Below are positions 50,400 through 64,000 of a DNA stretch of 64,000 nucleotides, piece by piece. Origin of the DNA: Shinella sp. PSBB067. Lineage in GTDB: Bacteria; Pseudomonadota; Alphaproteobacteria; Rhizobiales; Rhizobiaceae. Position 1 is the stretch's first letter, and every line of letters starts with the position of its first letter. The stretch is from NCBI RefSeq assembly GCF_016839145.1, contig NZ_CP069303.1:1798001-1862000 (forward strand), in the 5' to 3' direction. The notes under the pieces are model-generated. The model searched no databases and was not told the DNA's origin. It saw nothing but the letters and a program-made list of their open reading frames with translations. The position numbers were made by a program, and so were the translations under genes.

Positions 50400-51818
50400 C
50401 TAGAATTGGGGATGCCGGGCGAGCCAGTCGGTCGCCCCTTCATAGGCGGCGGCAGCGGCGAGCACGTCCCGGTCGGAGCGTGCGGGACCGATGATCTGGA
50501 TGCCGGCCGGCAGCCCGTTTTCCCCGAACCCGGCCGGCATGGCCGCGACGGGAAGACCGGCGAGCGTCGGCCCGATCACTACCTCCATCCAGCGATGATA
50601 GGTATCCATCGTCCGCCCGGCGATCGCCTTCGGCCAGTCCAGTTCCGCAGCGAAGGGAAAGACCTGCGCGGAAGGCAGGATCAGGAAATCGTAGGTTTCG
50701 AAGAGGCCGGCGACATGGCGATACCAGTCGCTGCGCCCGAGCGAGGCGGCGTGGACCTCGGCCGCCGAAAGGCCATGGCCGTTCTCGATCTCCCAGATCA
50801 TCTCAGGCTTCATGCGCGCCCGCCGCTGCGGGTCGGCATAGTCGGCCGCCTGCCCGCCGCAGACGAGGAAATGGCGCAGCGTGCGCCAGACCTGCCAGAG
50901 CCGCGCCATGTCGAAGCCCGGCGCCACCGCCTCCACCGTGCAGCCGAGCCGCCGGAAGACGTCGAGCGAGGCGCGGCAGAGCTCCAGCACGCCCGGCTCG
51001 AAGGCGAGATAGCCGTCGAAATCGCCGAGCCAGCCAATGCGGGCGCCCGACAGGTCGCGGCCTTTATCCAGCGCCAGGTCCTCGCCGGGCAGCGACAGCG
51101 GGTCGCGCGGATCGTATCCGGCCTGCGTGGCCAGAAGCGCCGCAACGTCGGCGACGCTTCGCCCCATCGGGCCGTTGACGGCGAGCTGGCCGAGGAAGAG
51201 TTCGTTGCCGAGCGAGGGCACCCGGCCGAAGGACGGGCGGAAACCGACGACATTGTTGAAGCCGGCGGGATTGCGCAGCGATCCCATCATGTCGCTGCCG
51301 TCGGCGACCGGCAGCAACCGCGCCGCCAGCCCGGCCGCCGCCCCGCCGGAGGAACCGCCGGCGCTCTTCGTCGTGTCGTAGGGATTGCGGGTGACGCCGA
51401 AGACCGGGTTGTAGCTGTGCGAGCCGAGGCCCATTTCCGGCGCGTTGGTCTTGCCGATGACGATGGCGCCGGCCGCGCGGATGCGCTCGACATGGATGTC
51501 GTCGTAGTCGGGCACGAAGTCCGCATAGTTCGCCGAGCCGAAGGAGCACAGGATGCCCCTGGCCTCGGAAAGGTCCTTCACCGCGAAGGGCACGCCATGC
51601 AGCCAGCCGCGATAGTCCCCGGCGGAAAGCGCCCGGTCGGCCTCCTCCGCCTCGGCAAGCAGCACCTCGGCCGGGCGCAGGCTGACGATGGCGTTGATGC
51701 GCGGGTTGATCGCCTCGATGCGCGACAGGTAGGCGGCCATGACGGTACGGCAGTCCAGCCGGCGCGCGGCGATGGCGGCGGAAAGGGAAAGGGCGGAAAG
51801 GTCGGTGATGTCCTGCAA
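50400..51818 (-). CDS. Amidase-signature hydrolase
   Basis: This 472-residue enzyme hydrolyses an amide bond through a Ser-cisSer-Lys triad. Lys is in PFAVKDLSEA, the Gly/Ser core is SAGGSSGGAAAGLAARL with the second Ser, and the nucleophile neighbourhood is GSDMMGSLRNPAGF. It begins at TTG 51818 (QDITDLSALSL follows) with GGAG eight bases ahead; I see no good ATG. It neighbours the amine cluster to the right but lacks the shared TGAATG palindrome upstream, so its membership is uncertain. Substrate is unknown. Confidence 0.82.
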   Translation of the reverse strand: MQDITDLSALSLSAAIAARRLDCRTVMAAYLSRIEAINPRINAIVSLRPAEVLLAEAEEADRALSAGDYRGWLHGVPFAVKDLSEARGILCSFGSANYADFVPDYDDIHVERIRAAGAIVIGKTNAPEMGLGSHSYNPVFGVTRNPYDTTKSAGGSSGGAAAGLAARLLPVADGSDMMGSLRNPAGFNNVVGFRPSFGRVPSLGNELFLGQLAVNGPMGRSVADVAALLATQAGYDPRDPLSLPGEDLALDKGRDLSGARIGWLGDFDGYLAFEPGVLELCRASLDVFRRLGCTVEAVAPGFDMARLWQVWRTLRHFLVCGGQAADYADPQRRARMKPEMIWEIENGHGLSAAEVHAASLGRSDWYRHVAGLFETYDFLILPSAQVFPFAAELDWPKAIAGRTMDTYHRWMEVVIGPTLAGLPVAAMPAGFGENGLPAGIQIIGPARSDRDVLAAAAAYEGATDWLARHPQF

Positions 51819-52140
51819 GGTCGGCTCCGGCAATCGTCTGATGCAAGAGCTAGCAGGCGCGGCAGGGCAGCGCCAGCCCGGCGTCATCGCTGCCGCCCGC
51901 GACAAGCCCGGCCGTCGATTTCCGCGGGCGCCTGCGGCGAGCCTTTCGACGCCGGAAGCCATGTACGCCTGCGAGCGGGGCCGCCATCAGCCGCGTGAAG
52001 ACCTGCCGTCAAGCATCGGAACCGGCGCGGTTTCTCGCCGAAAACCTGCCCTGCCCCGCCGCCGACGGTCCGGATTTTGCCCCTGCGCAAGCGGGACGAT
52101 CTCGCAACCTATTCCTTTTGAACGGTAAATGTGCTTATAT
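51819..52140. other. Divergent gap before the Rieske oxygenase
   Basis: No gene is seen in these 322 bases. The last 35 are AT-rich and end TTATAT (52135-52140), a likely -10 for the Rieske gene that directly abuts the operator at 52141. Confidence 0.4.
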
Positions 52141-52154
52141 TGAATGAACGTTCA
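52141..52154. promoter_or_regulatory. Amine-cluster operator A
   Basis: TGAATGAACGTTCA fits TGAATG-NN-C(A/G)TTCA, the motif also at 55139 and 61022. It follows a -10-like TTATAT with no gap, so a bound repressor would block the start of Rieske gene transcription. Confidence 0.65.
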
Positions 52155-52173
52155 GCAAGATATGGGGAACAGG

Positions 52174-53367
52174 ATGAACGAGATGATCCGCGACATCAGC
52201 GTTCCTGATGACTGGGACAGGAGCGGACTTCCGGGCTGGTGTTACCACAGCCCCGCCCTGCTGGAGCTGGAAAGGCAGCATGTCTTCCGCGAACACTGGC
52301 AGATCGCCTGCCATGTCTCCGACATTCCCGAGGCAGGCAACTATCTTGCCATGGACGTCGTCGGCGAACGCGCGCTCATCCTGCGCGGGCAGGACGGCGC
52401 CGTGCGCGCCTTCCACAATATCTGTCGCCATCGCGGCTCCCGCCTCGTCGCGGATGAGAAGGGGTCGTGCCGCAACGCGCTCGTCTGTCCGTTCCACGGC
52501 TGGGTCTACAATCTCGACGGCACGCTGCGCGGCGCCGCCCGCCCCCGCAGCTTCCCGCCGCTCGACAAGGACGAATTCGCGCTTAAGCCGCTGGAATGCG
52601 AGATCTGGCAGGGCTTCGTCTTCATCCGCTTCGCTCCCGGCCCGCAGCCCGCCGTCGCCGAGCTGATGAAGCCCTTCGAGGAGGAACTGTCGCACTACCG
52701 GCCGCAGGAGATGGTGCCGGCGGGCGGCATCTGGACGCAGGAAACGCCGGTCAACTGGAAATCCGTGCGCGACGTCGACAACGAGGGCTACCACGTCGCC
52801 ATGGCCCACCCGGCCCTGCAGGATCTCTACGGCTCCACCTATTACGACGAGCCCTTCGTCGACGGCCTCTGCCGCTCCTTCGCGACCTACAATCCGCATG
52901 CCGGCCGGCGCTGGAGCGTGCGCAACTATGTGAGGATCTCGCCTGACAACACGCGGCTTCCCGAGCGCCTGCGCAGGGCCTGGATCTATTTCGGCCTCTT
53001 CCCAAACTGCGTCATCGCGGTCACGCCGGAAACCGTGCAGTTCTACCAGGAATTCCCGGTCTCCGTCGGCAGGACCCTGCTGCGCGGCGGCGTCTATCGA
53101 TACCGCGACGAGGACCGCGCCCACCGCCTCGCCCGCTACCTCGCCTTCCGCATCGACCGCGACACGCAGGCCGAGGACGTTCAGCTCACCGTCTGGTCGA
53201 ATGAGGCCATGACCTCTGCCGCCTTCGCCGGCTTCTACCTCTCCGACCTCGAATACGGCGTGCGCACCCACCACGACCACCTGCGCCGCGTCCTGCCGGT
53301 CGTGAACGTGAAGGATGCGCCGGAGGAAAAGGACATGGCGGACATCAATGCCGGCCTGAAAGGCTGA
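52174..53367 (+). CDS. Rieske oxygenase, quaternary-amine demethylase type
   Basis: This 397-residue oxygenase alpha subunit has a Rieske [2Fe-2S] site, CRHRG (Cys84, His86) and CPFHGW (Cys105, His108), and a mononuclear iron site in VRDVDNEGYHVAMAHP (His207, His212). The residue bridging the two iron centres, usually Asp in aromatic dioxygenases, is Glu here (EGYH). Glu is known at that place in carnitine oxygenase CntA. This favours N-demethylation of an amine over ring attack. No reductase is encoded nearby. Starts 52144 (inside the operator), 52174 and 52183 are possible; I used 52174. Confidence 0.8.
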   Translation: MNEMIRDISVPDDWDRSGLPGWCYHSPALLELERQHVFREHWQIACHVSDIPEAGNYLAMDVVGERALILRGQDGAVRAFHNICRHRGSRLVADEKGSCRNALVCPFHGWVYNLDGTLRGAARPRSFPPLDKDEFALKPLECEIWQGFVFIRFAPGPQPAVAELMKPFEEELSHYRPQEMVPAGGIWTQETPVNWKSVRDVDNEGYHVAMAHPALQDLYGSTYYDEPFVDGLCRSFATYNPHAGRRWSVRNYVRISPDNTRLPERLRRAWIYFGLFPNCVIAVTPETVQFYQEFPVSVGRTLLRGGVYRYRDEDRAHRLARYLAFRIDRDTQAEDVQLTVWSNEAMTSAAFAGFYLSDLEYGVRTHHDHLRRVLPVVNVKDAPEEKDMADINAGLKG

Positions 53368-53393
53368 TCGAAAAATACACCGACTGCAAAAAA

Positions 53394-53411
53394 GGCCCGC
53401 ATTCGCGGGCC
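53394..53411 (-). terminator. Hairpin with T run on the minus strand
   Basis: GGCCCGC (53394-53400) and GCGGGCC (53405-53411) pair around ATTC. AAAAAA before it on the plus strand makes a T run for minus-strand transcripts, so it mainly stops reading from the aminotransferase side, and perhaps also ends the Rieske mRNA. Confidence 0.7.
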
Positions 53412-53443
53412 TCCAGACTGCTGGCAAAGTGCGACAACGTCTC

Positions 53444-53534
53444 TTTCGCCATGCTCGGGCCTGTCCCGAGCATCTGCAACGTCTCTATTTGTCAATGCTT
53501 TAGCGGATCCTCGGCACAAGGCCGAGGATGGCGG
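53444..53534. repeat. RIME-like double-palindrome repeat, copy 2
   Basis: It contains ATGCTCGGG-cctgt-CCCGAGCAT and ATCCTCGG-cacaagg-CCGAGGAT, both perfect palindromes here. The order and sequence match the copy at 22064-22154; the piece between the hairpins differs more. Confidence 0.78.
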
Positions 53535-53629
53535 TGGTGGGCAGGGAGAGGCTTGTCAACAAGCCGCAGGCCTGCATTCGCGGGCTCGAACGGCTGGACC
53601 GGGCAATGGTTGCTCCAGGCAAGCCATCC

Positions 53630-53652
53630 GTGGAAGGGCTCAGCCCTTCCAC
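53630..53652 (-). terminator. Perfect hairpin across the aminotransferase stop codon
   Basis: GTGGAAGGGCT (53630-53640) and AGCCCTTCCAC (53642-53652) are perfect inverted arms with a single base between. The aminotransferase stop codon (53642-53640) lies at its tip. No T run follows, so the role may be 3' end protection or slowing at the stop. Confidence 0.5.
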
Positions 53653-55064
53653 AGCCCCTCGCGGGCAAGATCGTCCATTGTCAGCTCGATGCCCCGGCGC
53701 AGGATCGCCGCCATGTCGTCGATCTGCGCCGTCGAGATGGTCAGCGGCGGCGACATCACGCACATGTTGATGAGCGGGCGCACGAGAAGGCCGAGGTCCT
53801 GGCAGTGCCGGTCGATGCGCTTGCCGACTTCGAGGTCGAGCGTCAGCGGGTTCTTGCTGTCGCGGTCGGCGACGCATTCGACGCAGGCCATCAGCCCCAG
53901 CCCGCGCACCTCGCCGACCAGCGGCAGGTCCTCAAGCGCCTTGAGGCTCCGCTGGAAATGGTCCGAAACCGCCCGCGTATGCTCCAGCAGCCCGCCTTCC
54001 AGGAGGTCGAGGTTCTTCAGCGCCACCGCGCAGCCGACCGGATGGCTGGAATAGGTGAGCCCGTGCGCGAACATCGCCTCGGAATGGTTCGAGCGGCGCA
54101 GTTCCTCGAACAGCCGCCCGGCGATCATCACCCCGCCGAGCGGGAAATAACCCGACGTCACGCCTTTGGCGAAGGTGATCATGTCGGGCTCGATGCCGAA
54201 GACGTCCTTCGAGGCGAAGACGTGGCCGAGGCGGCCGAAGGCCGTCACCACCTCGTCGGCGATGAAGAGAATGTCGTTTGCGCGGCAGAGCGCGTGCATG
54301 CGCTCGAGATAGCCGGCGGGCGGCACGATGACACCGCCGGAGGCCATGACGGGCTCGGCGATGAAGGCGCCGATCTTGTCCGCCCCCCTCTCCTCGATGA
54401 CCGCCCGGAACTCTTCGACGAGAAAGTCGCAGAAGGCCCCGACCGTCATGCCATCGAGCCGGCGGAACGGGTCCGGGCAGGAGAGCTTGACGACGAGATC
54501 ACCGGCGCTGTCCATCCAGTCATGGTCGCGCGGCCGGCCGTTGAGCGAGGCGGACAGGTAGGTCGAGCCATGGTAGCCGCCCTGCCGGGAAACGATCAGC
54601 TTCTTCTCCGGCCGCCCCTTCACATTGTTGGCGAACTGCATGAAGCGCAGCGCCGTCTCGACCGCCGAGGAACCACCCGTCGTGTAGAACACATGGTCGA
54701 CGCCCTCGGGCGCATGGCCCGCCAGCCGCGCCGAGAGCACGGCGGACGGCGCGTTCGTCGTGTACCACGGCGAATTGTAGGAAAGCTCCATCGCCTGCGT
54801 GGCCATCACGTCAGCCAGCGCCCTGTTGCGATGCCCGGCATTGACGCACCACATGCCGGCGGGACCGTCGATCAGCCGGCGGCCGGCCGCGTCCGTCACG
54901 TAGATGCCGTCGCCGGCCTCGATGCGCCCGCGCGCCTCCGCGCCGATGGAGCCGGACACCGGCCAGGGCTGCACCAGATGGCGCTCGGCAAGCCGGGTCA
55001 GCTCGTCGGCCGCCGCGCCCTCCGCGCGCCTGCCCTCGTCCCCGGCCTTCGCAATTGCCGCCAT
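53640..55064 (-). CDS. Class III (omega-amine type) aminotransferase
   Basis: This 474-residue PLP enzyme belongs to the class III aminotransferases, which act on terminal amines such as putrescine, beta-alanine or GABA. GGSSAVETALRF binds phosphate, FIADEVVTAFGRLG holds the PLP-pairing Asp270, and ITFAKGVTSGYFPLGG the Schiff-base Lys300. I chose ATG 55064 because GGAGG lies six bases before it; ATG 55076 is the alternative. It is divergent from the permease genes across operator B, placing it in the amine cluster. Confidence 0.9.
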   Translation of the reverse strand: MAAIAKAGDEGRRAEGAAADELTRLAERHLVQPWPVSGSIGAEARGRIEAGDGIYVTDAAGRRLIDGPAGMWCVNAGHRNRALADVMATQAMELSYNSPWYTTNAPSAVLSARLAGHAPEGVDHVFYTTGGSSAVETALRFMQFANNVKGRPEKKLIVSRQGGYHGSTYLSASLNGRPRDHDWMDSAGDLVVKLSCPDPFRRLDGMTVGAFCDFLVEEFRAVIEERGADKIGAFIAEPVMASGGVIVPPAGYLERMHALCRANDILFIADEVVTAFGRLGHVFASKDVFGIEPDMITFAKGVTSGYFPLGGVMIAGRLFEELRRSNHSEAMFAHGLTYSSHPVGCAVALKNLDLLEGGLLEHTRAVSDHFQRSLKALEDLPLVGEVRGLGLMACVECVADRDSKNPLTLDLEVGKRIDRHCQDLGLLVRPLINMCVMSPPLTISTAQIDDMAAILRRGIELTMDDLAREGLWKG

Positions 55065-55138
55065 GTTCGCCTCCATCAGGATTCTAAGAAATATTCCCGG
55101 AGCAACAATATGAAAGTTCTAACATTTTTCCATCATAT

Positions 55139-55152
55139 TGAATGTTCGTTCA
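55139..55152. promoter_or_regulatory. Amine-cluster operator B
   Basis: TGAATGTTCGTTCA, the same TGAATG-NN-C(A/G)TTCA motif, extends to an ATTGAA...TTCAAT palindrome (55137-55154). It lies between the aminotransferase (minus) and the ABC permease genes (plus), so one bound dimer could block both. Confidence 0.7.
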
Positions 55153-55321
55153 ATCAATATCGCAGAAGTGGGGCTTGATTTCAACGGGGATTTGGGCGCA
55201 TGTTGGCACCAGGGAACAGAGACGCCGCCCGCAAGGGACGCGCGCAAGCCGAAAAGGCGCCGGACATGGGAATGGAAAACCTCACGCTCCATGAGAGTTG
55301 TCGTCGCGAAGGTTTCGTCCG

Positions 55322-56239
55322 ATGACGGCAACGGCGTTCGATACGATCGCTGGAACGCCCTCTCCCGCCAGGCACCGGGCCTGGATGCGGAGCGAAGAGG
55401 CCCGCGGCCTCGCCATGATTTCGCCGACCTTCCTTTATGCGCTGGCGCTGCTCTTTCTCCCGGTCCTCATCGTCATCGCCTACAGCTTCTGGACCCAGGA
55501 CTATCTCGACATCGACCGCACCTTCACGCTGGAAAACTACCGGCAGGCGCTGACGGAACCGATCTACCGCGACCTCTTCGTCCGATCGCTGTGGATCTCG
55601 CTGGCGGTCAGCATCGTCACCGTCGTCTTCTCCTATCCCGTCGCCTGGTTCATCTCCTTCCACGGCGGGGTGCACCGGAACCTCTGGCTCTTCCTCATCA
55701 CCGTGCCCTGCTGGACGAGCTACCTGCTGCGCGTCATGTCCTGGAAGGTCATCCTCGGCTATGGCGGCGTCCTGAATACCGGCCTCATCTCGGTCGGCCT
55801 CATCGACAAGCCGCTGACCTCGCTGCTCTACAATTCCAACGCCGTCGTCATCACGCTGGTGCACAGCTGGGCGGCCTTCGCCATCCTGCCGATCTACGTC
55901 TCGCTGCAGAAGGTCGACCGCACGCTGATCGAGGCGGCGCGCGACCTCGGCGACAGCCGCATGCGCGCCTTCCTTCGCGTCACCCTGCCGCTGTCGCTGC
56001 CCGGCGTCATCTCCGCCTTCCTCATCGTGATGATCCCGACCGTCGGCGACTACGTGACGCCGCGCCTCGTCGGCGGCAAGGACGGCGTGATGATCGCGAC
56101 GGCGATCCAGGCACAGTTCGGCAAGGGCGCCAACTGGCCCCTCGGCGCCGCCCTGTCGGTGACGACCATGGTGCTCGTCTCGCTGACGGCCGCCGCCGTC
56201 GTGCTCGCCCTCAGGTTCGCCGTGCGGAGGATCAGATGA
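55322..56239 (+). CDS. PotB-like ABC permease
   Basis: The 305-residue inner membrane permease has about six helices, starting MISPTFLYALALLFLPVLIV, and the family's EAA loop EAARDLGDSRMRAFLRVTLP, which docks to the ATPase. The following SFLIVMIPTVGDYVTPRLVGG is typical of PotB/PotH. Start ATG 55322 has GAAGG nine bases upstream. It overlaps the next permease gene by four bases (ATGA). Confidence 0.92.
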   Translation: MTATAFDTIAGTPSPARHRAWMRSEEARGLAMISPTFLYALALLFLPVLIVIAYSFWTQDYLDIDRTFTLENYRQALTEPIYRDLFVRSLWISLAVSIVTVVFSYPVAWFISFHGGVHRNLWLFLITVPCWTSYLLRVMSWKVILGYGGVLNTGLISVGLIDKPLTSLLYNSNAVVITLVHSWAAFAILPIYVSLQKVDRTLIEAARDLGDSRMRAFLRVTLPLSLPGVISAFLIVMIPTVGDYVTPRLVGGKDGVMIATAIQAQFGKGANWPLGAALSVTTMVLVSLTAAAVVLALRFAVRRIR

Positions 56240-57060
56240 GCCTCCTGACGCAGCGCCTGCGCTTGCTTCCCTTCCTGCCGGCCTATGTCGCCGTCTATTT
56301 CCTTTTCCTCTACCTGCCGATCCTGCTGCTGCCGGTCTTCTCCTTCAACGATGCGGTGACGACCACCTTCCCGCTCGCCGGCTTCACCACGAAATGGTAC
56401 GCCTCGCTCGCCGGCAACTCGGCCATGCTGCAGGCAGCGCGGAACAGCCTGGTCGTCGGCATCTGCGTCTCGCTGCTCTCCACCGTCCTCGGCATCTGCG
56501 CCGCCCGCGCCATCACGCGCTACCGCTTCCGCGGCCAGCGGGCGGCATCCGGCCTCATCATGGCGCCGCTCTTCCTGCCGGAGATCATCGTCGCGGTCTC
56601 GCTTTTGATGATCGTGCTGGCGCTCGGCGCGGAACTCTCGCTCGTCACCGTCATCCTCGGCCAGACCGTGTTCTGCGTGCCCTATGCCATGTCGGTGCTC
56701 GTCTCCGGCTTCGAGGGCTTCGACCGGAGCCTGGAGGAAGCCTCCTACGACCTCGGCGAGACCGCTCTCGGCACCTTCCGGCGCGTGACGCTGCCGGTGG
56801 TGGCGCCGGCCATCGTCTCCAGCCTCCTCGTCACCTTCACCATCTCGCTCGACGAGTTCATCCTCGCCTTCTTCCTCTCCGGCACCGAGCCGACGCTGCC
56901 GGTCTATATCTGGGGCCAGCTTCGCTTTGCCGCCAAGCTGCCGGGCGTTCTGGCGCTCGGCACGATCATGCTCGTGGCCTCCATCCTCATGCTAACCCTT
57001 GCCGAAGTCCTGCGCCGCCGTGCCGAACGCCGCACGCAAATGGCCCTCATGCTGCCCTAG
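56236..57060 (+). CDS. PotC-like ABC permease
   Basis: This 274-residue second permease begins MSLLTQRLRLLPFLPAYVAV and has about six helices and the EAA loop EEASYDLGETALGTFRRVTLP. TFTISLDEFILAFFLSG is typical for PotC/PotI. Its start overlaps the PotB-like stop as ATGA, so translation is coupled and the two permeases should be made in equal amounts. Confidence 0.92.
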   Translation: MSLLTQRLRLLPFLPAYVAVYFLFLYLPILLLPVFSFNDAVTTTFPLAGFTTKWYASLAGNSAMLQAARNSLVVGICVSLLSTVLGICAARAITRYRFRGQRAASGLIMAPLFLPEIIVAVSLLMIVLALGAELSLVTVILGQTVFCVPYAMSVLVSGFEGFDRSLEEASYDLGETALGTFRRVTLPVVAPAIVSSLLVTFTISLDEFILAFFLSGTEPTLPVYIWGQLRFAAKLPGVLALGTIMLVASILMLTLAEVLRRRAERRTQMALMLP

Positions 57061-57068
57061 AGAGTTTG

Positions 57069-57088
57069 CGGTGAACTCCGGTTCACCG
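57069..57088. repeat. Inverted repeat between permease and ATPase genes
   Basis: CGGTGAAC (57069-57076) and GTTCACCG (57081-57088) are perfect arms around TCCG, nine bases past the permease stop. Without a T run it may be an mRNA-stabilising stem inside the operon or a regulatory site. It does not match the TGAATG operator. Confidence 0.5.
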
Positions 57089-57171
57089 GAAATCCTCTGG
57101 CTTTTGTCTTAACCGCATTGTCCGACGCCGGATCGAATCCGCTTCGGCCGGAAATGCTCCAGGAGCCGCCA

Positions 57172-58281
57172 ATGCCCGACCGCGCGATGATCGAGATCCA
57201 GGACGTGTCGAAGTTCTACGGCATCTACAAGGCGCTCGACAACGTGTCGCTGTCCATAAGCGAGGGCGAGTTCTTCTCGCTGCTGGGTCCCTCCGGCTGC
57301 GGCAAGACCACGCTCCTGCGCTCCATCGCCGGCTTCGAGAGACCGACGACGGGCGAGATCTACATCGACGGCGTGCCGTGCCTCGCCTTGCCGCCGAACA
57401 GGCGGCCGACCAACATGGTATTCCAGAGCTACGCCATCTTCCCCCATCTCGACGTCGCGGAAAACGTCGCCTACGGCCTGAAGCGGCTGAAGCTGGCGCC
57501 GGAGGAGGAAAGGAAGCGCGTCGGCGACGCGCTCGACCAGGTGCGCCTTTCCGGCCTCGGCCAGCGCAAGGCGCACGAGCTTTCCGGCGGCCAGCGCCAG
57601 CGCGTGGCCCTCGCCCGCGCCCTCGTCATGCGCCCGAAGGTGCTGCTGCTCGACGAGCCGCTGTCGGCGCTCGACAAGAAGCTGCGCGAGGAAATGCAGG
57701 TGGAACTGCGCACGCTGCAGAAGGCCGTCGGCATCACCTTCGTCCTCGTCACGCATGACCAGTACGAGGCGCTCGCCCTTTCCGACCGCATCGCCGTCAT
57801 GTTCGGCGGCCGCATCGCCCAGGTCGCCGCGCCGAAGGAAATCTACCAGCACCCGCGCACGCGCAAGGTCGCCGACTTCCTCGGCGGCATGAATTTCCTG
57901 AGGGCGAAGGTGCTCGGTGAACAGGGCAATGCCGTCTCGGTCGATGCCGCCCGCTTCGGTGCCGTCAGTCTCGACAAGCCGCACGGCTTTGCCGCCACCG
58001 ACGGCCACGTCACCGTCGGCATCCGCCCGGAGCGCCTGCGTCTTCTGTGGGACGACGAGCGCGCGCCGCACGAGCTTGCCGGCCGCATCGAGAACCGCGC
58101 CTATTTCGGCGAGGTCACCCACCTGACGGTCGGCATCGACGGGCTGGAACAGCCGCTCTCCATGGTCGAGACGAACAATTACGGCGCCGACGACCTGCCG
58201 ATCGGCGCCGAGATACGCCTTGCCTACGATCCGGACGCCTTCGTGCTGCTGGCGGAGGACCCGCCGGTATCGCGGGTGTAA
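57172..58281 (+). CDS. PotA-like ABC transporter ATPase
   Basis: The 369-residue ATPase powers the importer. Walker A is LGPSGCGKTTLLRSIAGFE, the signature LSGGQRQRVALARALV, Walker B VLLLDEPLSALDKKLREE, and the His switch VTHDQYEAL. A C-terminal TOBE region (about 280-365) marks it as the spermidine/putrescine type. I chose ATG 57172, with AGGAG six bases upstream; the frame is open to 57118. It follows the permeases by 111 bases and is in the same direction. Confidence 0.92.
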   Translation: MPDRAMIEIQDVSKFYGIYKALDNVSLSISEGEFFSLLGPSGCGKTTLLRSIAGFERPTTGEIYIDGVPCLALPPNRRPTNMVFQSYAIFPHLDVAENVAYGLKRLKLAPEEERKRVGDALDQVRLSGLGQRKAHELSGGQRQRVALARALVMRPKVLLLDEPLSALDKKLREEMQVELRTLQKAVGITFVLVTHDQYEALALSDRIAVMFGGRIAQVAAPKEIYQHPRTRKVADFLGGMNFLRAKVLGEQGNAVSVDAARFGAVSLDKPHGFAATDGHVTVGIRPERLRLLWDDERAPHELAGRIENRAYFGEVTHLTVGIDGLEQPLSMVETNNYGADDLPIGAEIRLAYDPDAFVLLAEDPPVSRV

Positions 58282-58295
58282 AAAAGCGGCGCCCC

Positions 58296-59378
58296 TCAAT
58301 ACCCCGCCTTGATCTTCTCGAATTCGGCGATCATCTTCTGCCTCAGTTCCGTCGGCATCGGCGACTGGAAGAGCGTGTTGGCGACGAAGGCGTCCACATC
58401 GGCATAGCCCTTTTCCTTGAGGATCGCCGGATCGACCGCCGCCATGCCCTTGGCGTTGGAATGGCCGTAGCCCCAGTTCTCCACCATATAGGCGGCCACC
58501 GAAGGATCGGTCACGGCATTGAGGTAGTCGTAGGCGCGATCCGTGCTGCCCTCCCCGCCCTTCAGCCGCACATAGCCGCAGACCCAGGTGGAAAGCCCCT
58601 CCTGCGTATCCTTCTTGATGGCGACCGGCTGGCCCTCGGCCTGAAGGGTCGTCGCCGTCTCGTTCCACGCCCAGGCGAGATCAACCTCGCCGCTCGCCAT
58701 GGCCTGGCTGAGGTCGGTGTTGTCGGTCCAGTAGAGCCGCACGTTCTTGTGCACGTCGCGCAGGAAGGCGGAGGCCTCCTGGAACTGCGCGTCGGTCATC
58801 GCCGTCCAGTCCTTGAGGCCGATGGCGAGGCTCGCCAGCGCATAGGCGTCGTCGACATTGTCGCCGATGGAGACGCGGTCCTTGAATTTCGGGTCGGCAA
58901 AGGCCTTGAGCGAGGCCACCTCTTCGGGCTTCACCGTGTCCGTGCGGTAGGTCAGCACGGTGTTGCCCCATTCGAAGGGAATGAACCAGGCCGTCCCGTC
59001 CTCGGAGGTCATCAGGTTCTTCATCACCTTGAAGTTCGGCAGGATGTCGTTCCACGACGCGAGCTTGGCCGTGTCGAGCGGCTCCAGCAGGCCCGCCTCC
59101 CGCCACTTCACGACGCTCTGCGAACAGGGATGCGCCAGATCCGCCTTGAAGCCGGAGCGCAGCTTCTGGAACGCCTCCTCCTCGTCGCCGAAGAACGAGA
59201 AGTCGGGCTCGCCGCCGTGCTTTTGCGTATAGGCGGGGTGGAAGGCGGGGTCCTCGTAGCCCGACCAGTCGAAGACGGTCAGCGTGTCGGCGGAAAGGGC
59301 GGGAAGCGCGGTGCCGAGGGCAAGGAGGGCGGCAAGGCCCACCGTGGTGCAAGTCCTGGCCTTATCGATCGTCTTCAT
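58296..59378 (-). CDS. PotD/PotF-like amine-binding protein
   Basis: The 360-residue periplasmic binding protein has a signal peptide (TVGLAALLALGTALPALSA) and the PotD-type start DTLTVFDWSGYEDPAF. The two lobes include WFIPFEWGNTVLTYRTD and SGEVDLAWAWNETATTL. Such proteins bind polyamines or related cations. It converges on the ATPase gene with 14 bases between, and is last in the methyltransferase-regulator-binding protein run, so it should answer to operator C. Confidence 0.9.
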   Translation of the reverse strand: MKTIDKARTCTTVGLAALLALGTALPALSADTLTVFDWSGYEDPAFHPAYTQKHGGEPDFSFFGDEEEAFQKLRSGFKADLAHPCSQSVVKWREAGLLEPLDTAKLASWNDILPNFKVMKNLMTSEDGTAWFIPFEWGNTVLTYRTDTVKPEEVASLKAFADPKFKDRVSIGDNVDDAYALASLAIGLKDWTAMTDAQFQEASAFLRDVHKNVRLYWTDNTDLSQAMASGEVDLAWAWNETATTLQAEGQPVAIKKDTQEGLSTWVCGYVRLKGGEGSTDRAYDYLNAVTDPSVAAYMVENWGYGHSNAKGMAAVDPAILKEKGYADVDAFVANTLFQSPMPTELRQKMIAEFEKIKAGY

Positions 59379-59406
59379 GCCGTGCTCCCTTCCCGTTTCG
59401 GGTTCC

Positions 59407-60072
59407 CTATCGTGGTTTTGGTCCCTGGATCGTCAGATGCTGCGGGAAGGCGATGGCGACGAAGGCGACGGCCGCCTCCAGCGCCTTTTCCCGCGTCGTG
59501 CCGTCGCCCATCATCAGGCGCAGCCACAGGCCCTCCAGCATGGCGCAGAGCGAAAGCGCCATGGGCTCCGGCTCATAGCCATAGCCGCCCTCGGCCTTGA
59601 GGTCGGCGCACAGCGAGATCACCGTTTCCTGGTACTTGACGTCGCGCGCGCCGCACAGCGCCTGGTAGGTCGGCCGCGACTTGGCCTCGCCCCAGAAGGC
59701 GCACCAGGCGGCCAGCTTGCGCTTGGTGCAGATCTTGCGGTCGAAATCGGCATGGATCAGCGCCCAGAGGCGGCCGGCAAGGCTCGGCCCCGCCTTGTCC
59801 AGCGCCGCGTTCCAGTGGTCCGCATATTCCTCGGACATGTATTGCAGCGTGGCGACGAGCAGGTTGTCCTTGCTCTCGAAATGGAAGTTGACGATGCCGC
59901 GGGAAAGGCCGGCGCCGTCAGCGACGTCCGCGAGCGTGGTGTCGGAATAGCCGCGCCGGGCGAGCGAATCGATCGTCGCCTCGATGAGCTGCTGCCGCCT
60001 CGTTTCCTTAGAAGCCTTGCGCCCCCGCTTCCCGCCGTCGCCCGAGCCCTGTTCAGCCCCGTCTGCCCGCAT
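59407..60072 (-). CDS. TetR-family regulator of the amine cluster (BetI-like)
   Basis: The 221-residue repressor has a basic N-terminus and the helix-turn-helix RRQQLIEATIDSLARRGYSDTT, DVADGAGLSRGIVNFHFESKDNLL. The C-terminal part (RKLAAWCAFWGEAKSRPTYQ) resembles BetI, which responds to choline in other bacteria. It is the only regulator gene in the cluster and is likely the protein that binds TGAATG-NN-C(A/G)TTCA, which is inference. I chose ATG 60072. It lies 28 bases before the binding-protein gene and 41 after the methyltransferase. Confidence 0.85.
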   Translation of the reverse strand: MRADGAEQGSGDGGKRGRKASKETRRQQLIEATIDSLARRGYSDTTLADVADGAGLSRGIVNFHFESKDNLLVATLQYMSEEYADHWNAALDKAGPSLAGRLWALIHADFDRKICTKRKLAAWCAFWGEAKSRPTYQALCGARDVKYQETVISLCADLKAEGGYGYEPEPMALSLCAMLEGLWLRLMMGDGTTREKALEAAVAFVAIAFPQHLTIQGPKPR

Positions 60073-60113
60073 CTTCACCGTCACCTTGCCCCTGGGATTT
60101 TTCAGCAGAACGG

Positions 60114-60932
60114 TCACGGGCGAACTCCCGAAGCCGGCTTGCTGGCGCGCAGATGAGCGGGACAATGCTCCCCGCTGTCAAGAACCTTCTGCATGGCCGT
60201 CCAGGTGCGGATGTTCTTCTCGACATAGGCCTCGCCGACCGCCGCCACGGCCTGCGCACGGAGCGGGCCTTTCAGGCGCTCCAGTTCACCCCGCGCCACG
60301 TCGCGATACCAGGCGTTGTGGCTCTCGGCGGCACAGTCGACGAAACCGGCCGCCGCCATGGCCGCGAGATAGCGGCGCGCGGAGGCCATGCCGAAGCTCA
60401 GCCCCTCGGCGGCGATATAGGCCTGCATGTCCGCGCTCGGCGCGCCGTCATGGCCGATCAGCCAGTCGGATGCGGCAAGGACGCCGCCAGGCTTCAGCAC
60501 GCGGTAGAGCTCGGCAAACAGCGCCTCCTTGTCCGGGACATGGATCATCGCATCCTTGGAAAAGACCACGTCGAATTCGCCGTCGCCGAACGGCAGGCGT
60601 CTCGTCGGGCTCGAAACGAAGCGCGCGATCAAGGAAAGCCCCGCAGCATCCGCCGCCGCCACGGCGCGGTCGATGACAGGCCGCTCCACGTCGTAGCCGA
60701 CGATCCCGGCCGGCCGATGGGTTCTGGCGACATGCAGCGTGATGCCGCCCGCGCCGCAGCCGAAATCGAGCACGCGCCTGCCCTTGAGATCGATGCCCGA
60801 AAGCACGCGGTCCACCTCTTGCGGCCCGCCCGGCGAAAGATAGCCCTCGCCCCACATCATCCCGAGGAAGCGGATCGCCGCCTCGTCATATTCCGGCTCC
60901 GCCGCCGCACCGTGCTCACCCCTCGCCGTCAT
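60114..60932 (-). CDS. PMT-like SAM-dependent N-methyltransferase
   Basis: This 272-residue class I methyltransferase resembles phosphoethanolamine N-methyltransferases of plants and protists. WGEGYLSPGGPQEVDRVL, VLDFGCGAGGITLHVA (SAM loop), VVFSKDAMIHVPDKEALFAEL and VLKPGGVLAASDWL follow in that order. Such enzymes methylate amine nitrogens. In this cluster it stands opposite in chemistry to a likely N-demethylase. It is first in a minus-strand run with the TetR gene and binding protein, divergent from the flavoproteins across operator C. Substrate is unproven. Confidence 0.78.
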   Translation of the reverse strand: MTARGEHGAAAEPEYDEAAIRFLGMMWGEGYLSPGGPQEVDRVLSGIDLKGRRVLDFGCGAGGITLHVARTHRPAGIVGYDVERPVIDRAVAAADAAGLSLIARFVSSPTRRLPFGDGEFDVVFSKDAMIHVPDKEALFAELYRVLKPGGVLAASDWLIGHDGAPSADMQAYIAAEGLSFGMASARRYLAAMAAAGFVDCAAESHNAWYRDVARGELERLKGPLRAQAVAAVGEAYVEKNIRTWTAMQKVLDSGEHCPAHLRASKPASGVRP

Positions 60933-61021
60933 GGCTTTCCCGCTCTCGTGGCCGCGTGGCCGGCGCGCTTTTCCGTGGGTCGAAATTCTAGCGCATAATC
61001 AGGCGATTGCAAGATACTTGC

Positions 61022-61035
61022 TGAATGATCATTCA
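61022..61035. promoter_or_regulatory. Amine-cluster operator C
   Basis: TGAATGATCATTCA, a perfect palindrome and the third copy of TGAATG-NN-C(A/G)TTCA; with flanks it is CTGAATGATCATTCAG (61021-61036). It separates the methyltransferase (minus) from the flavoprotein genes (plus) and can control both. Confidence 0.7.
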
Positions 61036-61094
61036 GAATATCTGGACAACATTTTGCTTTTGATGCAGCTTTCTGAAACAAGGGAGACGTCAAT

Positions 61095-62714
61095 ATGCGC
61101 AAGTACGATGCCCTGATCGTCGGCGGCGGCCATAACGGGCTGGTCACGGCCTGCTATCTCCAGCGCGCCGGCCTCGACGTACTCGTCGTGGAGAAGAACG
61201 GTTGGGTCGGCGGCGCGGCGACCAGCCGCGAGCTGACGCCCGGCTTCCTCTACTCCAACTGCTCCTATGTCTGCTCCCTCTTCCGGCCGGAGATCATGCG
61301 CGATCTCGAACTGCCCCGGCACGGCCTCCAGGTCATCGCCTACGAGGGCGGCGCGGTGTTCACCCGCGACGGCGACTACCTCGCCTCCTACCGCGACCGC
61401 GACAGCCACCGCCGCGAATTCGCCCGCTACTCCAGGCGCGACGCGGAAGCCTACGAGCGCTATGCCCGCGACGTGACGCGCCAGTGCCGCTTCATCCAGC
61501 CGCTCCTGATGCGCACCGCGCCCGACCCCTTCGGCTTCCGCCCGCGCGACATTTCCGAACTCCTCTATCTCGCGAAAAAATTCGGCGCGTTCAGCCCGCA
61601 CGAAATGGCCGACACGCTGCGCTTCTGGACCATGTCGATCTCCGACTTCCTCGACGAATATTTCGAGACCGACGTCATCAAGGCCTATCTCGCGCTGTCG
61701 GGCATCATCGGCACAGCGCTCGGCCCCATGTCGCCCGGCACGGCCTATGTCCTGCTCCACCATTATATGGGCGAGGTGGACGGCTCCGTCGGCGCCTGGG
61801 GCTATGCGCGCGGCGGCATGGGCGCGGTGACCGAGGCGCTTTCCCGCTCCTTCCGGGCCTCCGGCGGCACGATCCGCACCGATGCCGAGGTCTCGAAGAT
61901 CCTGACGCGCGGCGGCCGCACCACCGGCGTCGTCCTGGCGAACGGCGACGAGATCCGCGCCGACCTCGTCGTCTCCAATGCCGATGTGAAGCGCACCTTC
62001 CTCAAGCTCGTCGACGAGGGCAGCCTGCCCGGCGAATTCGTCCACCGGGTCAGGCACTTCAAGATGCGCGGCTCCTCCGGCAAGGTGAACATCGCGCTCG
62101 ACAGCCTGCCGGAATTCCCGGCCCTGCCCGAAGGCTCCACCTGCATCCGCGGCGACATGCATTTCACCGACTCGATCGAGCGCATGGAGCGCGGATACGA
62201 CGACTGGAAGGCCGGGCGCTGGTCGGCCGATCCCTTCCTCGACATGATGATCCCCACCCTGCTCGATCCGACCATGACGTCGCCCGGCAAGCACTTCATG
62301 AGTTGCTTCGTGCAATATTGCCCGCCGAAGGTCGAGGGCCGGGAGTGGACGGATGCGGACCGCGACGCCTTCGCCGAGACCGTCATCGGCCAGATCGCCG
62401 ACTATTCTCCCGGCTTCCGCGACCGCATCGTGCATATGGAAGTGCGCACGCCGCGCGAGATCGAGAACGAGGTGGGCCTCACCGAAGGCAACATCTTCCA
62501 GGGCGAACTCACCTTCGACCAGTTGCTCTTCAACCGGCCCGTGCCGGGCTACGCCCAGTACCGCAGCCCGATCCACGGGCTCTATATGTGCGGCTCCTCC
62601 ACCCATCCGGGCGGCGGGGTCATGGGCGCGCCCGGCCGCAATGCCGCCGCCGAGATCCTGCGCGACCTGAAGTGTCCCGCCGACCAGATGAGCAAAGCCC
62701 ATGACGTCGTTTGA
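61095..62714 (+). CDS. Phytoene-dehydrogenase-like FAD oxidoreductase
   Basis: This 539-residue flavoprotein starts MRKYDALIVGGGHNGLVTA, the FAD dinucleotide motif, followed by VVEKNGWVGGAATSRE. GYARGGMGAVTEALSRSF is in the middle, and the C-terminal FAD motif is LYMCGSSTHPGGGVMGAPGRNAA. The group includes CrtI and human PYROXD2; most bacterial members have no known substrate. No other carotenoid gene is here, so amine or related oxidation is as likely. GGGAG upstream supports ATG 61095. Its end overlaps the next gene by 14 bases. Confidence 0.85.
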   Translation: MRKYDALIVGGGHNGLVTACYLQRAGLDVLVVEKNGWVGGAATSRELTPGFLYSNCSYVCSLFRPEIMRDLELPRHGLQVIAYEGGAVFTRDGDYLASYRDRDSHRREFARYSRRDAEAYERYARDVTRQCRFIQPLLMRTAPDPFGFRPRDISELLYLAKKFGAFSPHEMADTLRFWTMSISDFLDEYFETDVIKAYLALSGIIGTALGPMSPGTAYVLLHHYMGEVDGSVGAWGYARGGMGAVTEALSRSFRASGGTIRTDAEVSKILTRGGRTTGVVLANGDEIRADLVVSNADVKRTFLKLVDEGSLPGEFVHRVRHFKMRGSSGKVNIALDSLPEFPALPEGSTCIRGDMHFTDSIERMERGYDDWKAGRWSADPFLDMMIPTLLDPTMTSPGKHFMSCFVQYCPPKVEGREWTDADRDAFAETVIGQIADYSPGFRDRIVHMEVRTPREIENEVGLTEGNIFQGELTFDQLLFNRPVPGYAQYRSPIHGLYMCGSSTHPGGGVMGAPGRNAAAEILRDLKCPADQMSKAHDVV

Positions 62715-64000
62715 TGCCATCGTCATCGGCGCCGGCCATAACGGCCTCGCCGCCGCCACCTGCCTCGCCAGAAGCGGCCGCAAGGTCCTGGTGCTGGAAG
62801 CGGCGGACGCGCCGGGCGGCGCGGCGCGCGGCCGGGAATTCGCGCCGGGCTTCCGCTCCGCCGGCCTTGCCCATCTCGTCAACCGGCTCGATGGCGCGGT
62901 CGCCCGCGACATCGGCCTCGACCTTGCGGGCGGTGACGCATTGTTGCCGACCACGGTGCTCGACGGCAGCGGCGGGGGCGTCATCCTCAACGGCGCCTAT
63001 GGCGAAACCATCGACGGCGTCACCGCCGAGGAGGAAGCCGCCTTCGCCGCGCTGCGCGGCAAGCTCGTCTTCCAGGCGGCTATCCTCAAGCGTTTCCTGC
63101 GCCGCCCGCCGCCGCAGATCGGCGCCATCTCGCTTGGCGACCTCTCGACCTTCGCCGCAACCGGCTTCAGCCTGATCCGCAAGGGGCGCGGCGAGGCCCG
63201 CGATTTCCTGCGCATGCTGCTGATGAACGTCGCCGACGTCGCCGACGAATATCTCGCCGACGACAGGCTGAAGGGCCTCCTCGCCTTCGACGCCACGCTC
63301 GGCATCCATCTCGGCCCCCGCTCGCCGACCTCCCTGCTCGGCCTCTACTATCGCCTGACGGGCGACGTCGCCGGCAGGACCGGCGGCCAGTTCGTGCCGG
63401 CCGGCGGCATGGCCTCGCTCGCGCCCGCCTTCGTGCGCGCCGCCGAAAAGGCCGGCGTCACCATTCGCTGCAGCGTGCCCGTCGGCCGCATCCTCGTCGA
63501 CCGCGGCCGGACGAGCGGCATCGTCACCAGCGACGGCACCGAGATCGCCGCCCCCCCTCGTCGTCTCCGCCATCCATCCGCAGACGACCTTCCTCCACCT
63601 CGTCGACCCCGCCGAAAGCGGCACCGGCTTCGTGCGCTCGGTGAGGAACGTGCGCAGCTTCGGCAACGTCGCCAAGCTGGACCTCGCTCTGGACCGCATC
63701 CCCAGCTTCGAAGGCCTTCCGGCCGAGGCCCGCAGCGGCCGCATCGTGCTGGTGCGCGGAATGGAACAGGTCGAGACGGCCTTCAACCCGGCGAAATACG
63801 GCGAATTCTCCCCTGACCCGGTGATGGAGATCACGCTGCCGAGCCTGGCCGATCCCGCGCTCGCGCCGGCCGGCGGCTGCACACTTTCGGCCCTGGTGCA
63901 ATACGCGCCCTACCGGCTCAAGGCGGGCTGGGAAACAGGCAAGCCTGCCTTCCTCAGGATCGTGCTGGAGACGCTGGAACGCCACGCGCCGGGCATCGGC
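62701..64000 (+). pseudogene. Second phytoene-dehydrogenase-like gene, frameshifted, cut by window end
   Basis: It begins ATG 62701, FDAIVIGAGHNGLAAATCLA, and aligns in style with the gene before it. The frame is normal to about residue 283, where seven C at 63551-63557 shift it; the reading frame then turns into basic low-complexity sequence and stops at 63816. If one C is removed, the frame continues LVVSAIHPQTTFLHLVD through SPDPVMEITLPSLADP and SALVQYAPY to the window end without a stop. So it is one base out, by sequencing error or true mutation. The remainder lies outside the window. Confidence 0.72.

Follow-up and report, generated by a model that had tools for sequence, protein, structure and literature searches.

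Rhizobia demethylate stachydrine with the Rieske oxygenase Stc2 and a flavin-dependent N-methylproline demethylase. Rieske oxygenases of the CntA/Stc2 type are marked, as quaternary-amine enzymes, by the Glu of an E-x-Y-H motif, and a dedicated reductase gene lies adjacent. Trimethylamine N-oxide (TMAO) demethylase and dimethylglycine oxidase are GcvT-domain enzymes with tetrahydrofolate-dependent capture of the methyl carbon, and the choline repressor BetI is a TetR protein with a TetR_C_6 domain and a palindromic operator. Here, we analyzed a gene cluster of Shinella sp. PSBB067 in a 64,000-nt stretch of its genome (NZ_CP069303.1, positions 1,798,001 to 1,862,000; the whole stretch is called the window). 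A preliminary description had proposed that one palindrome ties these genes into an amine import-and-catabolism regulon. We find that the cluster is one regulon, most likely under its own TetR regulator, and that it probably serves the catabolism of a quaternary N-methylated amine.

As in stachydrine demethylation, a Rieske enzyme would remove the initial methyl group from a quaternary amine and a flavoprotein stage would follow; unlike that system, the cluster has two CrtO/PYROXD2-like flavoproteins (FAD1 and FAD2) and a GcvT-like protein for the second stage and also encodes a PotABCD-type importer and an omega-aminotransferase. CntA and GbcA are relatives of the cluster Rieske enzyme, and CntA has the same Glu, but the similarity covers only residues ~28 to 230, the score is far under the GbcA cut-off, and the cluster has no reductase. 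The GcvT-like protein is nearest to TMAO demethylase in the PDB, whereas its presumed oxidizing partner consists of two CrtO-like flavoproteins that are encoded as separate chains. The cluster TetR shares domain and palindromic operator with BetI but falls under the BetI cut-off, and the genome has a separate BetI. A search of the open-access PMC literature, which could miss an account in a subscription journal or preprint, returned no description of this regulon.

Operator palindromes in the cluster and its relatives

A pattern scan of the window located exact copies of TGAATGNNCRTTCA at 52141, 55139, and 61022 and nowhere else, as had been noted by eye; the copy at 61022 is a perfect palindrome. 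Dinucleotide shuffles of the window gave a chance expectation of 0.02 copies per window. Throughout the whole 5.77 Mb genome, the three cluster sites were the only exact matches, the reversed-pattern control had 0 matches, and the looser TGAAYGNNCRTTCA again returned only these three sites. Extrapolated to the full genome, these shuffles predict ~2 sites, so that three sites are not striking by count; the argument for a regulon therefore lies in their placement and conservation rather than their number. All three fall inside 9 kb, each at a promoter of one cluster (Table 1), and they precede every transcription unit: the Rieske gene; the aminotransferase and, divergently, the permease-ATPase genes; and, from the shared third site, methyltransferase-TetR-binding protein and FAD1-FAD2-GcvT-small81. 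The window and eight relatives all retain a downstream Rieske ATG (52174 here), whereas its distance from the site differs among them. Hence, the ATG within palindrome 1 is probably not the start of the Rieske gene, the likely start being 52174.

To assess conservation, we surveyed 86 loci with FAD1 as the query, many of them truncated by contig ends or the 10 kb flank. The 80 loci taken from genomes represent the best FAD1 relatives among the matches listed (81 to 94% identity) and are, for that reason, not independent samples. Sites with at most one mismatch were counted in a 460-base start region per gene in 84 loci; L008 and L009, which have no site and a diverged TetR, and all further distant loci stand outside this count. 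Such a site was present before the Rieske gene in 24/24 testable loci (exact in 21), in the aminotransferase start region in 70/70 (exact in 58), in the PotB start region, whose window shares its site with that of the aminotransferase, in 68/68, and before FAD1 in 83/84 (exact in 25), the exception being L098, a locus showing only FAD1. One mismatch was seen in 58 of the 83 FAD1 sites, most commonly as TGAACATTCATTCA (47). The control genes PotC, PotA, FAD2, GcvT, and small81 had a site in 0 of 404 start regions, which consist largely of coding sequence; the 93 windows for PotA also cover PotA-like genes unrelated to the cluster. Exact sites in the 84 loci numbered 109, with 104 inside the Rieske, aminotransferase, PotB, or FAD1 start regions; three of the remaining five lie by a Rieske gene at the locus edge (L023, L080, and L093) and two elsewhere (L084 and L091).

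Furthermore, a scan of 30 genomes with TGAAYGNNCRTTCA returned 56 sites, versus 4 for the reversed pattern (G013, G022, G030, and G400). Of the same-genus genomes, the nine having the cluster Rieske gene contained 3 to 4 sites each, 2 or 3 of them within the cluster; the four for which the Rieske search came back empty contained 0 each. Same-family genomes with the Rieske gene had 2 (G023), 2 (G031), 1 (G035), 3 (G022), and 1 (G030, on another contig), and those without it 0 (G029), 1 (G034), 0 (G024), and 2 (G027). In one more distant genus, the counts were 4 (G097), 1 (G225), 2 (G323), and 6 (G400), with an exact site directly upstream of FAD1 in G225 and G400. The genome-wide scan, the 30-genome check, and site conservation at related loci led us to reject the palindrome as a chance occurrence. 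Because the sites are specific genome-wide, conserved at related loci, and absent from the four same-genus genomes without the Rieske gene, we conclude that the genes form one regulon. The linkage first proposed is thus strongly supported, and it is conserved across genera.

Several observations weigh against this reading. Two genomes, G034 and G027, have sites yet no Rieske gene, and exact sites occur off-cluster in G001 (1/3), G004 (2/4), G005 (1/4), and G030 (1/1). Diverged clusters lack the palindrome: G439 and G370 have a single site each genome-wide, outside the cluster, and G271 and G165 have 0; a TetR was found in 3 of these 4 genomes, is 39 to 46% identical, and is accompanied by other visible palindromes. 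Among 17 further, mostly distant Rieske loci with upstream sequence (48 to 72% identity), 6 have an exact upstream site (L219, L226, L228, L230, L231, and L236) and 11 have none (L220 to L225, L227, L229, and L232 to L234). In several clusters that lack the site, other palindromes lie between or near TetR and its neighbor, namely, ones resembling TGATTGAC-nn-GTCAATCA in L008, L220 to L222, L224, and L227. A third type, resembling TTTTTGAGCGCTCAAAAA, lies between TetR and FAD1 at L133:8320 and L009:31000, so that divergence of the operators may have gone hand in hand with that of the TetR clades.

Gene products and alternative readings

Table 1. Features of the cluster in the window
Feature	Position	Strand	Remarks
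Operator palindrome 1, TGAATGAACGTTCA	52141..52154	none	Rieske gene 5' leader/promoter, just upstream
Rieske oxygenase	52174..53367	+	Pfam Rieske and Ring_hydroxyl_A; open reading frame (ORF) listed from 52144, likely start 52174
Class III (omega) aminotransferase, PRK07036 family	53640..55076	-	NF005447, 681.7 bits, above cut-off 618
Operator palindrome 2, TGAATGTTCGTTCA	55139..55152	none	Divergent promoter, aminotransferase (ATG 55076) and permease genes
PotB-like ATP-binding cassette (ABC) permease	55322..56239	+	Profile matches; ORF listed from TTG 55298, likely start 55322
PotC-like ABC permease	56239..57060	+	Profile matches
PotA-like ABC ATPase with TOBE_2 domain	57118..58281	+	Profile matches
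PotD-fold solute-binding protein, ligand residues altered	58296..59378	-	PotD-fold model
TetR regulator, BetI-type C-terminal domain	59407..60072	-	TetR_N and TetR_C_6; ORF listed from TTG 60165; 83/86 loci
PMT-like S-adenosylmethionine methyltransferase, accessory	60114..60932	-	In 67/84 loci having TetR and FAD1
Operator palindrome 3, TGAATGATCATTCA	61022..61035	none	Divergent promoter, methyltransferase (60932) and FAD1 (61095)
FAD1, CrtO/PYROXD2-like flavoprotein	61095..62714	+	Pfam/NCBIfam matches, homologue names
FAD2, second CrtO-like flavoprotein	62701..64000	+	Frameshifted; extends past window end

The best solved relatives of the Rieske oxygenase are carnitine monooxygenase and then PDB entries named "Ring-hydroxylating dioxygenase" and "Monoxygenase; demethylase," which we take to be Stc2. 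Residues C94, H96, C115, H118, E214, H217, and H222 are invariant in an alignment of 40 rows (over 36 carrying a letter at each position), giving the C-x-H...C-x2-H motif, the mononuclear-iron histidines, and the E-x-Y-H Glu of the CntA/Stc2 type; this Glu is also present in the CntA and Stc2 alignments. The genome has five PF00970 reductase-domain matches, none at the cluster, and one of them, at C2:2667588, adjoins a GbcA-like gene. The rank of presumed Stc2 among the solved relatives, together with Old Yellow Enzyme (OYE)-type neighbors in some lineages, would suit a cyclic or methylated heteroaromatic betaine akin to homarine, trigonelline, or stachydrine whose ring is demethylated or hydroxylated by the Rieske enzyme. 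However, a linear primary amine reached by repeated N-demethylation is suggested both by the aminotransferase, of the class III omega type, and by the combination of FAD1, FAD2, and GcvT, and no ring-opening enzyme is among the cluster genes; a cyclic substrate is therefore unlikely. Homarine as a lead yielded nothing on this cluster in the open-access PMC literature.

A confident model gives the binding protein a PotD fold, which GABA (gamma-aminobutyrate) receptors share at lower Z; its score against the PotD profile NF007048 is 87.5 bits (cut-off, 582). At the positions of PotD D168, E171, and D257, presumably the acidic polyamine contacts, N, D, and C stand in 113/113 binding proteins with >50% identity (sister-cluster proteins, 19 to 26% identical, e.g., in L008 and L221 to L224, were left out), so that only the E171 position is still acidic; aromatic PotD positions are retained. 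Uptake and degradation of putrescine or spermidine, with the Rieske enzyme and flavoproteins acting on the amine backbone instead of N-methyls, would agree with the PotABCD-like transporter and with the putrescine and polyamine transaminases among the solved aminotransferase relatives. Nonetheless, the loss of two of the three presumed contacts undercuts the polyamine analogy drawn in the preliminary description, and the Rieske relatives and GcvT-like protein point to N-demethylation, making a polyamine pathway rather improbable.

The cluster TetR is the likely repressor of the regulon and most likely also the protein that binds the palindromes. Some clusters with a diverged TetR have no site, as expected if another regulator bound the palindromes. 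On the other hand, TetR is present in 83/86 loci, the site has the symmetry common in TetR operators, the transcription unit that includes TetR itself has a site in its promoter region, and other palindromes are seen in the clusters whose TetR has diverged; binding by another regulator thus appears quite improbable.

Breakdown of choline, glycine betaine, or carnitine by a rearranged bet/gbc/cnt system would fit the BetI-type C-terminal domain of TetR and the nearest PDB relative of the Rieske enzyme, carnitine monooxygenase. The scores speak otherwise: TetR reaches 115.2 bits against BetI (TIGR03384; cut-off, 201.3), and the Rieske enzyme 139.4 bits against GbcA (NF058607; cut-off, 670) over residues 28 to 227 only. 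Better matches lie elsewhere in the genome, namely, a BetI above cut-off (C2:569783, 241.4 bits), whose locus, in the stretch examined, has no operator site closer than two mismatches, and a GbcA-like gene beside a reductase-domain gene (C2:2667982, 512 bits, itself below 670). Moreover, the cluster genes annotated in L006 to L009 include neither a choline dehydrogenase nor a betaine aldehyde dehydrogenase. Because both scores fall below the cut-offs and the genome has better matches, these three substrates are very unlikely, and the earlier analogies with BetI and GbcA do not hold.

A partly biosynthetic cluster with carotenoid enzymes (CrtO/CrtI) can be dismissed almost entirely, since FAD1, although its best NCBIfam match is CrtO (NF045689), scores 305.5 bits against a cut-off of 1000, and the same neighborhood holds GcvT in 80/86 loci and the binding protein in 78/86.

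The methyltransferase resembles plant phosphoethanolamine N-methyltransferase (PMT), as had been proposed, and has Y15, D127, and H131 in 72/72 sequences at what we take to be the catalytic Tyr/Asp/His of PMT. The likeness does not extend to the K-Q-R-x-Y motif, where E176 and L178 (72/72) replace an Arg and a Tyr that presumably bind phosphate in PMT. The Glu in place of the Arg suggests an acceptor with a cationic rather than a phosphate group.

Cluster content, flavoproteins, and proposed pathway

Using a presence threshold of ≥45% identity (≥40% for the amidase), we found among the 86 loci Rieske in 35, aminotransferase in 71, PotB in 69, PotC in 69, PotA in 72, binding protein in 78, TetR in 83, methyltransferase in 68, FAD1 in 86 (the query), FAD2 in 83, GcvT in 80, and small81 in 78. 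The amidase at 50400 to 51962, at which the preliminary description began its stretch, was present in 2/86 loci and was dropped as a member. The outline given in that description was correct, but its gene content was not complete: the operon extends past the window end, with the GcvT-like protein next (L004:1755-2987). The best PDB match of this protein is TMAO demethylase, and it scores 157.8 bits against GcvT (TIGR00528; cut-off, 235.85). The acidic pair of the GcvT G-x-x-x-D-D motif, which has a functional role, is kept, with the first Asp in 88/93 and the second in 90/93 and Glu otherwise. In relatives, GcvT is followed by small81 (L006:28873-29118), an 81-aa protein with a conserved SGRxRY...LExYR pattern and no Pfam or NCBIfam match.

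FAD1 is 91 to 96% identical to FAD1 of eight named Shinella records; a Shinella FAD2 scores 193.3 bits against the CrtO profile (cut-off, 1000). Among 120 listed FAD1 homologues, the UniRef names of at least 6 start with "Pyridine nucleotide-disu...", which we take to be the PYROXD2 name. To our knowledge, no reaction has been established for human PYROXD2, an orphan protein and a metabolite quantitative trait locus for N6-methyllysines, whose presumed likeness to FAD1 is drawn from these truncated names. Two reports associate human PYROXD2 variants with plasma N6-methyllysine and N6,N6-dimethyllysine (PMC8109053, PMC9730628); in the former, variants are also associated with N6,N6,N6-trimethyllysine, and one variant accounts for about half of plasma N6-methyllysine variance in one study (PMC8109053). 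We tentatively raise the possibility that FAD1-FAD2-GcvT is an undescribed N-demethylase in which the PYROXD2-like pair oxidizes N-methyls of methylated lysine or omega-amino-acid betaines and passes the carbon to tetrahydrofolate. In L142, and also in L145 and L147, two FAD1-like genes and GcvT lie together, and the stretch examined shows no match to a Rieske or importer gene; they adjoin a glnE-like gene in L142 and an ORF of similar size at that position in L145 and L147 (the glnE-like scan covered L142 only).

We infer each reaction, the step order, and the substrate as follows. In the uninduced state, the cluster TetR would sit on the three palindromes before every transcription unit, and the substrate or a product formed early from it presumably serves as the inducer. 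The PotD-fold importer would bring the compound in, and the Rieske oxygenase, with a reductase encoded elsewhere, would take one methyl off the quaternary nitrogen as formaldehyde. FAD1 and FAD2 would oxidize the remaining N-methyl groups, the GcvT-like protein would pass the one-carbon unit to tetrahydrofolate, and the freed amine would become a semialdehyde by omega-transamination. If the substrate is a trimethylated amine that also bears another functional group, its demethylation to a primary amine and subsequent transamination would account for all genes but the methyltransferase and small81. Import and catabolism of an N-methylated amine, as first proposed, is well supported by the gene content, and the GcvT-like protein beyond the window end adds to this support. 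The most likely substrates are an omega-amino-acid betaine (beta-alanine betaine, gamma-butyrobetaine, or 5-aminovalerate betaine), a candidate because of the omega-aminotransferase and the GABA-binding relatives of the binding protein, or N6-trimethyllysine and its lower homologues, candidates because of the association of human PYROXD2 variants with plasma methyllysines. The evidence does not favor either.

This pathway also has points that do not sit well with it. The cluster genes include no Rieske reductase, aldehyde dehydrogenase, or formaldehyde-handling gene; the methyltransferase has an unexplained place in a purely demethylating pathway; and the FAD1 fold model (predicted local distance difference test score, 49.2) was not used. 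FAD2 is frameshifted at or near the C7 tract 63551-63557, its two frames matching an intact Shinella relative with 85% (285 aa) and 90% (235 aa) identity. Since that relative has an intact FAD2, the frameshift is either a strain mutation or a sequencing error; with FAD2 frameshifted, this strain may be unable to complete the pathway.

Distant clusters differ in content. Scanning of chosen ORFs identified as neighbors a HemL/GntE-like aminotransferase, a dimethylsulfoniopropionate (DMSP)-lyase-family cupin, an amidohydrolase, MttB, and OYE, which inform on chemistry and were rejected as a clue to the substrate. In the Fuscovulum cluster (L008), the HemL/GntE-like class III enzyme stands in place of the PRK07036-family aminotransferase. 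A sister arrangement (L008:14844-22058 and L221 to L224) has two Rieske genes alongside TetR, a PotABCD importer that differs from the one above, and the DMSP-lyase-family cupin; FAD1-FAD2-GcvT is nearby in L008 and L221 and not in the others, and the TGATTGAC-type palindrome is in L008, L221, L222, and L224. At L228:15394-17500, an exact operator precedes an OYE-type flavoprotein adjoining a 51%-identical TetR; here, OYE may replace FAD1-FAD2-GcvT.

Altogether, Shinella, Rhizobium, Mesorhizobium, Phyllobacterium, and their relatives share a conserved and sharply delimited regulon, of which other alphaproteobacteria have diverged forms, and its operator, regulator, importer, and enzymes are each open to testing. 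The FAD/GcvT unit offers a bacterial system for finding the reaction of CrtO/PYROXD2-like enzymes. If FAD1-FAD2-GcvT is indeed an N-demethylase, this would be the first reaction for the PYROXD2 family and would account for the control of plasma N6-methyl- and dimethyllysine by human PYROXD2 variants.

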